Shown piece by piece: positions 1-4,905 of a stretch of 64,000 bases of DNA; the stretch's first letter is position 1; each line of letters starts with the position of its first letter. The DNA comes from an uncultured Pirellulaceae bacterium. GTDB lineage: Bacteria > Planctomycetota > Planctomycetia > Pirellulales > Pirellulaceae. The stretch is taken from the NCBI GenBank assembly GCA_937967505.1, contig CALCJM010000064.1:1-64000 (forward strand), in the 5' to 3' direction. The notes under the pieces were generated by a model. That model was not told the origin of the DNA and ran no database searches. It was given only the letters and a program-made list of their open reading frames with translations. Made by a program: the position numbers and the translations under genes.

Positions 1-1
1 C

Positions 2-775
2 GATGAAGTTCAATGGAAGAAAGGCCACAAGTATCAAACGCTGGTCTATCAGATCGATCAACATCAAAAACGCCTGTTGTGGATCGGCCCCGATCGCACA
101 GCCAAGACGTTGCTGCGATTCTTTCGCGTCTTGGGAAAAGATCGCACCAAGAAGTTGCAATTCATCTGCAGCGATATGTGGCAAGCCTACTTGAAAGTGA
201 TCGCCAAGAAAGCGCCTCAAGCGATTCACGTCCTCGACCGATTTCACGTGGTGCAAAAGCTTGGCAAAGCGATCGACAAGGTGCGTGCTGCTGAGGTCAA
301 GCAACTCAAGGCTGACGGTTATGAGGAAGTCTTGAAAGGTGGGCGTTGGTTATTGCTGAAGCGTCCCGAGAATCTCAGCGACAAGCAGGCCATCAAGCTG
401 AGCCAGCTGCTGCAATACAACCTCAAGAGTGTTCGCAGCTATTTGATGAAAGAAGACTTTCAGCAGTTCTGGACATACCAGTATCCGGCCCGCGCTGGAA
501 AGTTTCTCGACGCTTGGTGCACGCGCGCGATGCGCAGCAAGCTTGAACCTATGAAAGCAGTCGCCCGAACGCTACGTTCCAAACGAGAGTTGTTATTGAA
601 CTGGTTTCGCGCTGAGGGCAAGCTATCTTCGGGCATTGTCGAGGGTTTCAACAATAAAGTAAAACTGGTTACCAGAAAGTCCTATGGGCTAAGAACTCAA
701 AATGCCTATGAAACCACGCTATATCACAATTTAGGCGCGCTACCTGAACCAGAATTCACCCACAAATTCTTCTGA
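2..775 (+). mobile_element. ISL3-family-like transposase, C-terminal part (5' end cut by window edge)
   Basis: Open frame runs from the window edge (DEVQWKKGHKYQTLVYQIDQHQKRLLWIGPDRTAKTL...) through CSDMWQAYLKVI, HVLDRFHVVQKLGKAIDKVR and GIVEGFNNKVKLVTRKSYGLRT, the typical ISL3/DDE transposase C-terminal pattern. Confidence 0.88.
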
Positions 776-781
776 CGAGGC

Positions 782-1681
782 TTAAAAAATAACAGGCGTG
801 CCGGATGATCCAGCATGCCTGCTCAATTGCCAGCTCTCGTTAGGCATCAGTTCGCTTCTATCGCCTGCTGGATGCCGGTTGGATGCCGGTTGGTTCTGCT
901 GATACTGTTGGAATTGGTTTCCTTGACTACTTGGTGCTTGAGGTTGGGTTGTCCCTGGCAATCTCTGTCGAAAACCTCGCTGAGTTCCATTGCCAGCATG
1001 TCTGGATGGTGAAGCCGTCGCGCCAAGACTGTTAAGCTTGACTGAAACCGTCCCCGATCGTGTTACTGCTACTAACGCTTTCTTGAAAGTCGGCCGATTG
1101 TTGAAGCCGATCGCTTTGAAGTTACTCAAGCCAATGGGCTCTTTGGGCATGCCGATGAAGCTCTTGTCGATGAACTTGTTGCTGTTGAGATCGTGCACTA
1201 CAACCACCGCATAATTTCTAGGCTTGATGTTCTTAAAAGTATGGGTTGGATTTCCAGGGGCAATTCGAGCAAGATAATCAGCCTGTTTGAGCTTGTCTGG
1301 AAAAGAAGCCTCCTTGCTGTGAAGGGCAATAATGATTTCGCCCTGTTGTGCAACGACATCTGTGACCTGAACGTTTAGTGTAACGCCACCGCCTTGAGTC
1401 GGCGAAAGCAGATCCGCTTGCCGTGAAATCATACCATTCTGAGTACGATTTGATTGGCCTTGTTGCAATTGACCTTGAGACCACCGTTGCGTCGTGGATT
1501 GCGCACGTCGCTTCGATCCATCAGCTGGCTGGCTTCCCGGCAGGCGGTACACAGGCTGATTGGTAACGGGGTGCTCAATGATCGGTTGACTGTTCTGCTG
1601 TTGTGTTTGCTGAGCTTCAGCCCAAGAGCAGAACGCCAGCAACAACCCCATCGCGAAAACGAATTCTCTTCTTGTGTTCAT
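782..1681 (-). CDS. Secreted DUF2141-like protein
   Basis: Start MNTRREFVFAMGLLLAFCSWAEAQ gives a signal peptide; core VTDVVAQQGEIIIALHSKEASFP...YAVVVVHDLNSNKFIDKSFIGMPKEPIGLSN resembles DUF2141. The ORF track starts at 1723; 1681 is preferred. Confidence 0.7.
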   Translation of the reverse strand: MNTRREFVFAMGLLLAFCSWAEAQQTQQQNSQPIIEHPVTNQPVYRLPGSQPADGSKRRAQSTTQRWSQGQLQQGQSNRTQNGMISRQADLLSPTQGGGVTLNVQVTDVVAQQGEIIIALHSKEASFPDKLKQADYLARIAPGNPTHTFKNIKPRNYAVVVVHDLNSNKFIDKSFIGMPKEPIGLSNFKAIGFNNRPTFKKALVAVTRSGTVSVKLNSLGATASPSRHAGNGTQRGFRQRLPGTTQPQAPSSQGNQFQQYQQNQPASNRHPAGDRSELMPNESWQLSRHAGSSGTPVIF

Positions 1682-1745: not shown

Positions 1746-1765
1746 TAATGACTGTGGAGTCATTA
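1746..1765. promoter_or_regulatory. Operator-like palindrome 1 (TAATGACT-GTGG-AGTCATTA)
   Basis: Perfect 8-bp inverted arms with 4-bp spacer; related copies at 1773, 1881, 2245 and 2616. Confidence 0.65.
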
Positions 1766-1772
1766 CGGGCAA

Positions 1773-1792
1773 TAGTGACCGGCGAGTCACTA
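1773..1792. promoter_or_regulatory. Operator-like palindrome 2 (TAGTGACCGGCGAGTCACTA)
   Basis: 7-bp arms TAGTGAC/GTCACTA separated by 6 bp, same spacing as copy 1. Confidence 0.6.
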
Positions 1793-1880
1793 AAATGCAA
1801 GGTTGAATGGCAGTTTTCCAAACCTAACGGCTAGCAAGGCCAGATTTGCTATCAGCCTTCAAAAAAAATCCACTTGGCGT

Positions 1881-1900
1881 TAATGACTGTTCGGTCATTA
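1881..1900. promoter_or_regulatory. Operator-like palindrome 3 (TAATGACTGTTCGGTCATTA)
   Basis: Arms TAATGAC/GTCATTA with 6-bp centre. Confidence 0.65.
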
Positions 1901-2244
1901 TGACGATCTGCCTGTTAGTTGGTGCTCAAAGGAGAATTTGCCATGCCACATGAAAAATGTTCATTCGTTCCGTTCGGCTACTTCTACCTTTGTTTACTAC
2001 TTGCAAGTTCGGCGGGTTGCTGAGCAGCATTCTCTCAATCCCAACAGCTAGGCGTCTCCCGCAGTTCCGACTCGCGAACCATTTTGCATTCATCTGACAT
2101 GTTGTACCGGAAGGCTCGAAGGCGAGAGCTTCAAAAACGTTTGCCAATGAGCATTGATTTGCTTGATCCAGAGAGCCCACTTTTAAATTCGATTGCCGCA
2201 CTTCCTTACACGTTTTTTTTAATCCTGTCGGTTAATGCTGTCGT

Positions 2245-2264
2245 TAATGACCGGTTGGTCATTT
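2245..2264. promoter_or_regulatory. Operator-like palindrome 4 (TAATGACCGGTTGGTCATTT)
   Basis: Arms AATGACC/GGTCATT with GGTT spacer. Confidence 0.65.
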
Positions 2265-2615
2265 ATGCCCGATGGACTTGCTGGTTTGCAAACACCGGAA
2301 AACAACTCGGTACCAATGGCCGAACAAATGGATTTTGGCGGCCCAGACTGGGTAAGACAAAACCGCGAATACGTGGTTCAGCGAACAGTCTCGAATGCCA
2401 AGAATAACGTGCATCGCTTACTCGTTTTTCGTTCTTAATTGCCGCTCGTAAAAACTGAAATGCTGAAACTTGAAAGCAAGCAACCTTGATTTGAAATTCT
2501 GCCCGAGCATTCGACTCACGTCTTTCCCGATTCAACAGCTCAACAGTTCTGGGTTGGCTACCGTGGATACGTTGAACCGTTTGTCGAGACAACTTCTGAA
2601 ATATAAGCTAGTAAT

Positions 2616-2635
2616 CCATGACGCCTTAGTCATTC
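2616..2635. promoter_or_regulatory. Operator-like palindrome 5 (CCATGACGCCTTAGTCATTC)
   Basis: Arms ATGAC/GTCAT with 6-bp centre; 62 bp upstream of the ATG at 2697. Confidence 0.55.
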
Positions 2636-2696: not shown

Positions 2697-3683
2697 ATGA
2701 ATATTTTGATCGTACACGCTCATCACGAGCCAAAAAGTTTTTCGTCATCATTGGCTAACCAAGCCGAATTGACTCTCCGTGCTGCGGGGCATGATGTCGA
2801 AATTTCTGACTTGCATGCTATGAATTTCGACCCAGTGTCGAGCCGCAAGAACTTCGTCAGCGTCAAAGAGCCAGGGTACTTGAAGCAACAGGCCGAGGAA
2901 TCACACGCATCAAAAGTGGGAGGATTCGCTCCCGAGATCGAAGCAGAGATCCAAAAACTCGAAACTGCGGACGCGATTATATTCAGTTTTCCTCTGTGGT
3001 GGTTCGGTATGCCAGCCATTCTAAAGGGCTGGTGCGACCGTGTGCTTGCCTCTGGACGAGTCTATGGGGGGCCACAACTTTATGAAAACGGAGTTGGTAA
3101 AAGTGTAAAACGTGGAATCATCTTGATGACCACTGGAGGAGGCCCATCCGTCTACAGTGGCTGGGGTGTGAACCCTGCAATGGATACCATTCTCGCGCCA
3201 GTTCAACATGGGGTTTTTTGGTTCAACGGCATCAAGCCGCTGGAGCCGTTTGTCGCCTGGTCGCCAGCCCATTTGGAAAATGAAGAGCGAGTCCAAATTC
3301 TTGAGTCCTTGGACAGCAGACTGAAGAAACTCTTTGATGAACAGCCGATTGACCTGCCACCCATAGCCGATTTTCCCAACTGGGGCTTGGACATCAAGAA
3401 TCGCTATGTAGTTGTCGTAACACTGAAGAAAGAACCAGATGAACGATTCCATGAGCTTGTACACGCAGAGCAAGCCTTGCTCGCGAAATGGAAGCGACAA
3501 GGAAAGTTGATCGAGTTTAGCCTCGGCAACATGGACCAAACGGAATGGCGAGCCTTCTTGACTTTTCGTGCAAGCAACCGCAGCGAAGTGACGGCTTCGT
3601 TACCGGAACTTCCCCTAAACGAATACTTCGATTTTTCGATAACGGAACTTGCTAGGCCAAACTATTTGGAAAACAACCAATAA
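2697..3683 (+). CDS. NAD(P)H dehydrogenase (quinone)-type flavodoxin-fold protein with C-terminal muconolactone-isomerase/YCII-like domain
   Basis: MNILIVHAHHEPKSFSSSLANQA...FSFPLWWFGMPAILKGWCDRVLASGRVYG is NQO-like; C-terminus NRYVVVVTLKKEPDERFHELVHAEQALLAKWKRQGKLIEF...LPLNEYFDFSITELA is a separate small domain. Confidence 0.82.
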   Translation: MNILIVHAHHEPKSFSSSLANQAELTLRAAGHDVEISDLHAMNFDPVSSRKNFVSVKEPGYLKQQAEESHASKVGGFAPEIEAEIQKLETADAIIFSFPLWWFGMPAILKGWCDRVLASGRVYGGPQLYENGVGKSVKRGIILMTTGGGPSVYSGWGVNPAMDTILAPVQHGVFWFNGIKPLEPFVAWSPAHLENEERVQILESLDSRLKKLFDEQPIDLPPIADFPNWGLDIKNRYVVVVTLKKEPDERFHELVHAEQALLAKWKRQGKLIEFSLGNMDQTEWRAFLTFRASNRSEVTASLPELPLNEYFDFSITELARPNYLENNQ

Positions 3684-3728: not shown

Positions 3729-4223
3729 ATGGATACGGTTGCACGAGAATTCTACGATGCATTTCAAAAAGGCGAATTCGACCGTTTTGACGCGATTGTC
3801 CACCCGGACGTCGTTACAAACAGTTCCGCGAGCTTCGGCAACAAAGGAATTGACGCCTTGAAGGGCTGGGCTGGCGCCTTCCTGCCAGCATTTGCGCCTC
3901 GCATCGACTTGGTCGATGAAATTAACGCGGTCGATGAACATGGCAACGGTCGGGCCGTTGCGACCATTAACTTAAATTGGAAACACGTTGGTGATTTCTT
4001 TGGCCTCAGCCCATCAGGTAGGACGGGAACGTCGATCGAAAACCTAATAATGACGATCAAGGGAAATAAAATCGTTCGTCTTGAGGTGGCGGACACAACT
4101 TTGGATTTGGTGATCTACATGCATGAACGCGGATGGGTTTTTCCTCAGAACATTCGGCCCGAACCAATTGTAAAAGGAGTCGAAAGGCATGCCTCCGCCG
4201 GCCTCGTTGACCTGCGCGAATAG
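3729..4223 (+). CDS. SnoaL-like / NTF2-fold ester cyclase family protein
   Basis: ARE FYDAF..DRFDAIVHPDVV...W..FLPAF....D.VDEI pattern with F..G.SPSGRTG; typical SnoaL-like length and order. Confidence 0.72.
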   Translation: MDTVAREFYDAFQKGEFDRFDAIVHPDVVTNSSASFGNKGIDALKGWAGAFLPAFAPRIDLVDEINAVDEHGNGRAVATINLNWKHVGDFFGLSPSGRTGTSIENLIMTIKGNKIVRLEVADTTLDLVIYMHERGWVFPQNIRPEPIVKGVERHASAGLVDLRE

Positions 4224-4410: not shown

Positions 4411-4905
4411 CCAACGAATGTTTCTGCGAAAGACGAACTAAGAGCTAGTGGGATGGCCGGGGAAGCAGCGTGTTCTAAGCATCGTCGGGAGGATTCTTTA
4501 CCGGTTCATGCTTCACTTGCGGAGCAATTACAGGGATGGTTGTTGGAGGCTGGCCCAGGGCGAGTGCTGTTTCCTAAATTGGCCAAACGCAAAACATTTG
4601 AGATGATGGAGAAGGATCTAGGCTTTGCAGGCATCGAATACAAGAACGCTGACTGCGATGCAGACTTTCATGCGTTGCGTCACACGTTTATCAGTCAGCT
4701 GCTGAGTGGCGGTGCTACGGTTATTGAGACCAAGAATCTGGCCAGGCACTCAGACGTTCAAACGACTATGCGATATTCTCATGTTCAGCAGGACCAGCAG
4801 CGTGCCGCTATCAGCAAACTTGATTTTGAGGCCACTTGGCTGTCACAGCCTGTAATTAAGGGGCAACGCAACGAATCCGACAGCCAAAGTCGCTTTGGGC
4901 AATGA
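4411..4905 (+). pseudogene. Tyrosine recombinase / phage integrase, C-terminal catalytic fragment
   Basis: HALRHTFISQLLSGGATVIETKNLARHSDVQTTMRYSHVQ carries the HxxR...H...Y integrase motifs. In-frame stop at 4408 and no N-terminal SAM-like domain, so truncated. Confidence 0.75.

Follow-up and report, generated by a model that had tools for sequence, protein, structure and literature searches.

Introduction

In the paradigm of the TetR family, a repressor dimer seated on a palindrome blocks transcription until a ligand binds, and in the TetR/tetO system two such palindromes are placed between tetR and tetA (PMC3511530). TipR of Caulobacter crescentus is an autoregulated TetR repressor that controls a divergently oriented RND exporter, and four sites were identified for it by ChIP-seq (PMC10754441). 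The window analyzed here is the whole 64,000-nucleotide stretch of contig CALCJM010000064.1 (C64) from an uncultured Pirellulaceae bacterium. It harbors a cluster of five palindromes and is compared below with a TetR gene found on another contig (C130) of the same genome. As in TetR/tetO, palindromic operators are predicted near a regulator gene and its likely targets, and tandem pairs are familiar from that system (PMC3511530). The locus deviates from TetR/tetO in that the cluster would lie beyond a convergent gene and an ISL3 element and stretches across ∼0.9 kb flanked by two other genes, and in that a single strong site belongs to the C130 regulator itself. The C130 regulator resembles TipR in being a TetR-type repressor, probably autoregulated, with few sites in the genome, whereas the TipR sites are scattered over separate loci (PMC10754441).

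Five palindromes in a noncoding region

The first-pass annotation had described five 20-bp sites starting at 1746, 1773, 1881, 2245, and 2616, and all five were found at these positions (Table 1). The first is a perfect 8-bp inverted repeat, as described, with a 4-bp spacer. The common arm form (T)(A)ATGAC ascribed to all of them did not hold throughout, as the site at 1773 carries the arms TAGTGAC/GTCACTA instead of AATGAC. The palindrome at 2616 is limited to ATGAC/GTCAT. In the 966-bp region, five sites with up to two mismatches were observed against a mean of 0.08 and a maximum of 1 in dinucleotide shuffles. The matrix used for scoring was made only from other genomes, with 52 sites found in front of their homologous TetR genes; the genome of the window was excluded. 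Site 1881 was the top-scoring one in the window, and the two sites scoring highest (1881 and 2245) are the two without a clear gene. A random sequence of 3 Mb gave four places with at least 15 bits and 15 places with at least 12 bits; hence, the sites at 1746, 1773, 1881, and 2245 are strong and beyond chance, whereas the site at 2616 is marginal and its score could be given by chance. The centers of neighboring sites are 27, 108, 364, and 371 bp apart, and no common helical phase was seen in the spacing of the five sites. The 27-bp spacing between 1746 and 1773 compares with 22 and 26 bp in the tandem pairs of the TetR promoters at loci L057 and L067.

Table 1. Features of the left part of the window (coordinates in nucleotides of the window; scores in bits from the operator matrix).
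Feature	Position	Strand	Sequence	Remarks
ISL3 right part: transposase C-terminal 232 aa and right inverted repeat	1..781	+		NF033550, PF01610; cut by contig end
8-bp target-site duplication	782..789		TTAAAAAA	partner copy C130:37330-37337
DUF2141 gene, putative secreted protein	782..1681	−		PF09912, E 2.8e-24; probably regulated through sites 1746 and 1773
Predicted operator 1	1746..1765		TAATGACTGTGGAGTCATTA	25.0 bits; center ∼75 bp upstream of DUF2141 ATG
Predicted operator 2	1773..1792		TAGTGACCGGCGAGTCACTA	18.3 bits; center ∼102 bp upstream of DUF2141 ATG
Predicted operator 3	1881..1900		TAATGACTGTTCGGTCATTA	28.1 bits; without clear intact target
Predicted operator 4	2245..2264		TAATGACCGGTTGGTCATTT	26.6 bits; 442 bp upstream of flavodoxin ATG; without clear adjacent gene
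Weak operator-like site 5	2616..2635		CCATGACGCCTTAGTCATTC	11.2 bits; ∼71 bp upstream of flavodoxin ATG
Flavodoxin-fold NAD(P)H oxidoreductase with C-terminal muconolactone-isomerase-like domain	2697..3683	+		PF02525, E 1.3e-43; PF02426, E 2.3e-6; probable target
SnoaL-like protein	3729..4223	+		PF07366, E 8.1e-11

The earlier view that the region holds no convincing ORF was borne out, as no named ORF within 1740–2690 fell in the coding range of codon usage, and Pfam and Rfam searches returned no passing match. In particular, no decayed protein gene was recognized above the Pfam cut-off when the forward frames were read through stops, and no RNA element was found above the Rfam cut-off. No sigma-70-like promoter was recognized, and no second copy of the region was found in the genome. 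Codon usage gave a weak coding-like signal in one forward frame at ∼2290–2590. A 26-codon ORF at 1943–2020, with AAAGGAG as a good Shine-Dalgarno sequence, encodes a lipoprotein-like signal that ends at the lipobox cysteine and is followed by TGA; its frame is open to 2407, with codon usage that is not coding. The ATG of this ORF is located ∼52 bp from the center of site 1881.

The SnoaL-like gene follows the flavodoxin gene after a 45-bp gap and is probably co-transcribed with it. Flavodoxin gene homologues, whether from the phylum or from plasmids, align only to residues 1–227, and the fusion of Flavodoxin_2 with a muconolactone-isomerase-like domain therefore looks rare. No strong sites of the same type were found in the fetched flanks of flavodoxin gene homologues elsewhere, so the targets would be particular to the lineage of the window. 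In the congeners, the TetR and flavodoxin genes are absent and the sole DUF2141 match is weak (33% identity, E 4.8e-5). At 4453–4905, 0.2 kb after the SnoaL gene, the sequence resembles a tyrosine recombinase truncated to its C-terminal part (LRHTFISQLLSGG...), which suggests an integration-prone locus.

A TetR gene with the same palindrome in its own promoter

The genome (5.03 Mb, 183 contigs) gave six TetR_N matches, the best of which is the gene at C130:36716-37330, coding for a protein of 205 residues. Its N-terminal helix-turn-helix scored 57.7 bits with TetR_N (PF00440; cut-off 24), and its C-terminal ligand/dimer domain scored 36.6 bits with TetR_C_7 (AefR-like; cut-off 22) and 35.1 bits with TetR_C_11 (cut-off 32). 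The first-pass annotation had proposed looking for a TetR gene preceded by the same site, and this gene is such a one: the palindrome AAATGACCATCAGGTCATTA (24.5 bits) is present at C130:36458, 258 bp upstream of it. The upstream neighbor on the same strand is an ORF that we take, by reading its sequence, to be DUF2293-like; no divergent HlyD/DevBC or RND exporter adjoins the TetR gene. An operator-like site of 20.5 bits at C130:35540-35559 (L040:7541-7560) falls within the first codons of the DUF2293-like ORF, ∼1.2 kb ahead of the TetR gene, and may represent one more genuine site.

Genome-wide counts were derived from pattern searches. With at most one mismatch, the 20-bp motif was present only at 1746, 1881, 2245, and C130:36458, and at up to three mismatches the pattern gave 41 matches against 41 for the reversed control. 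The wide stress regulon that had been contemplated for these sites thus found no support, the strict motif being nowhere in the genome beyond the window and the C130 TetR promoter. An exact motif match at C163:21682, inside a Cas9-like gene, was dismissed as chance, as were most one-mismatch motif matches. The surrounding locus (L041, G000:C163:18000-27204) appears to be a type II CRISPR system with a 1056-aa Cas9-like ORF, Cas1-like and Cas2-like ORFs, and a repeat array.

These counts bear on the possibility that the sites serve an unrelated regulator sharing the half-site by coincidence, which is highly improbable: many regulators use short TGAC half-sites, but the sole other genomic place of the strict motif is the promoter of a TetR gene, and the motif accompanies the TetR clade in different phyla, as described below.

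Distribution of the TetR clade and its operator

A close homologue of the C130 TetR was present in 5 of 241 genomes of the same family, the genome of the window included and no congener among them. The proteins of the four other family members are ∼50% identical to it, and all four genes carry the same palindrome type in the TetR promoter. A collection-wide search yielded 79 loci, the 42 best-covered of which (L057–L098) were examined and showed 27–55% identity. The homologues were retrieved partly via the recognition-helix peptide AKGTVYLY and are hence expected to bind alike, and TGAC-N6-GTCA was found within 450 bp upstream of the own gene in 39 of the 42, whereas of 729 control blocks of equal size taken from these loci, 4 contained it. 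Together with the C130 promoter, this agrees with the earlier assignment of the palindromes to TetR/AcrR-type operators, and on these sequence comparisons the palindrome is the predicted operator of this TetR clade. Searches of the literature for the exact operator gave no named regulator.

The neighbors of most TetR genes of the clade are, as assigned by reading the sequences, presumably HlyD/DevB and DevC-like ABC exporters or RND pumps. In 15 other genomes with a TetR of the clade, strict sites (no mismatch), where present, were confined to one locus, either singly or as a tandem pair, and among 392 genomes of the phylum only that of the window exceeded two strict sites. Elsewhere in the phylum, single strict sites also adjoin more distant TetR genes (L202, L205, L211, L212, L213, and L214), so the operator type reaches past the close clade. 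The C130 protein and its promoter are thus like those of this unnamed exporter-linked clade. The locus differs from the relatives checked, whose strict sites, one or two in number, are confined to the TetR locus, in that the exporter is absent next to TetR and additional sites lie by the DUF2141 and flavodoxin genes. The component parts are all of familiar types; what is unusual for the clade is how many predicted operators are gathered at one spot.

An ISL3 element at the probable junction of the two contigs

The left end of the window is occupied by the right part of an ISL3 element, the transposase of which scored 195 bits with NF033550 (cut-off 180). On C130, the codon for the final TetR residue ends at C130:37330 and the TetR stop codon overlaps TTAAAAAA, which is followed directly by GGCTCTTCGGAAGAGTTTGTGGGTGATT, the left end of ISL3; the contig ends 136 bp from the start of the element. 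In the window, TTAAAAAA contains the stop codon of the DUF2141 gene. The terminal inverted repeats of the right end in the window and the left end on C130 align at 22 of 27 bases, and a complete ISL3 copy of 1401 bp in C165 carries both halves. The right flanks of seven other ISL3 copies in the genome are AT-rich and have seven different sequences. From the base frequencies of the flanks, the probability of a chance match of TTAAAAAA was estimated as ∼0.3% for this pair and ∼2% over the eight known right ends.

Since TTAAAAAA is present on both flanks, C130 and C64 most likely flank a single ISL3 insertion; this adjacency depends on an 8-bp duplication and on the matching ends of a multi-copy element, and AT-rich targets permit a chance match. 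The order would then be the TetR gene, ISL3, the DUF2141 gene (convergent with TetR), the operator region, the flavodoxin gene, and the SnoaL-like gene. The first-pass annotation had noted no regulator in the neighborhood, which is correct for the visible window; outside it, the TetR gene appears to be next on the left past ISL3. The regulator is probably missing from the window owing to a break of the assembly within a copy of ISL3. Copies of ISL3 were seen on contigs C130, C110, C19, C58, C79, C165, and C3 of the genome, some of them at contig ends, and contig breaks of this assembly often fall in ISL3.

Discussion

It is quite probable that the palindromes are operators of one AefR-like TetR/AcrR repressor, the one encoded at C130:36716-37330, whose gene is likely to lie just to the left of the window behind ISL3. 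What was computed here comprises the sites, their link to the TetR clade, the gene that encodes this TetR, and insertion flanks that match; from it we infer a model of binding, repression, targets, inducer, and physical adjacency. A repressor dimer would bind TAATGAC-N6-GTCATTA and would repress its own promoter via the C130 site, the DUF2141 promoter via sites 1746/1773 in tandem, and the promoter of the flavodoxin and SnoaL genes via the 2245–2616 side, and a small molecule would free it from the DNA. Only an ISL3 element, inserted exactly at the TetR stop codon, would separate the TetR gene from the window. Against this reading count the weakness of the flavodoxin-proximal site, the lack of strong sites in the fetched flanks of flavodoxin gene homologues, the failure to recognize a sigma-70-like promoter, and the absence of an obvious gene at 1881 and 2245. 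The latter two sites may serve the divergent pair as distal operators, may be left over from lost genes, or may titrate the repressor; decayed promoters brought together, as raised in the first-pass annotation, may also account for them.

The same repressor could act through fewer sites, with only 1746/1773 and perhaps 2616 working, while 1881 and 2245 are relics before decayed genes such as exporters; this is possible, though we tend to doubt it. The ribosome-binding site and the 26-codon lipoprotein-signal ORF shortly after site 1881, as well as the weak coding-like signal in one forward frame, are what such decay might leave behind. Moreover, the HlyD/DevB and DevC-like exporter genes found beside TetR in relatives are missing next to TetR here, and the nearby ISL3 insertion is evidence of rearrangement. 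However, the forward frames read through stops gave no Pfam match above the cut-off, codon usage does not mark the region as coding, and both sites are near-perfect and undecayed.

In a further reading, which we regard as unlikely, a TetR of the exporter clade was rewired: the exporter was lost, the operators multiplied to a five-site array over detoxification-type genes, and the strong sites without a gene serve as decoys or act cooperatively.

It also appears rather improbable that the additional sites exert their effect in trans or from afar, by titrating the repressor or by promoting looping and clustered occupancy, so as to sharpen how the divergent promoters respond. Both gene-less sites rank among the three strongest of the window, and none of the other sampled genomes of the phylum goes beyond two strict sites, as would suit such a role; the spacings, however, share no helical phase, and TetR dimers are, in general, not known to form tetramers.

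Under the preferred reading of one AefR-like repressor, the operator motif is assigned to a widespread and apparently unnamed TetR clade, and its regulons would become predictable in many genomes. The locus would serve as an example of a regulator that retains its recognition sequence as the genes under its control change, and as an example of how an assembly break may conceal the regulator of an orphan operator cluster.
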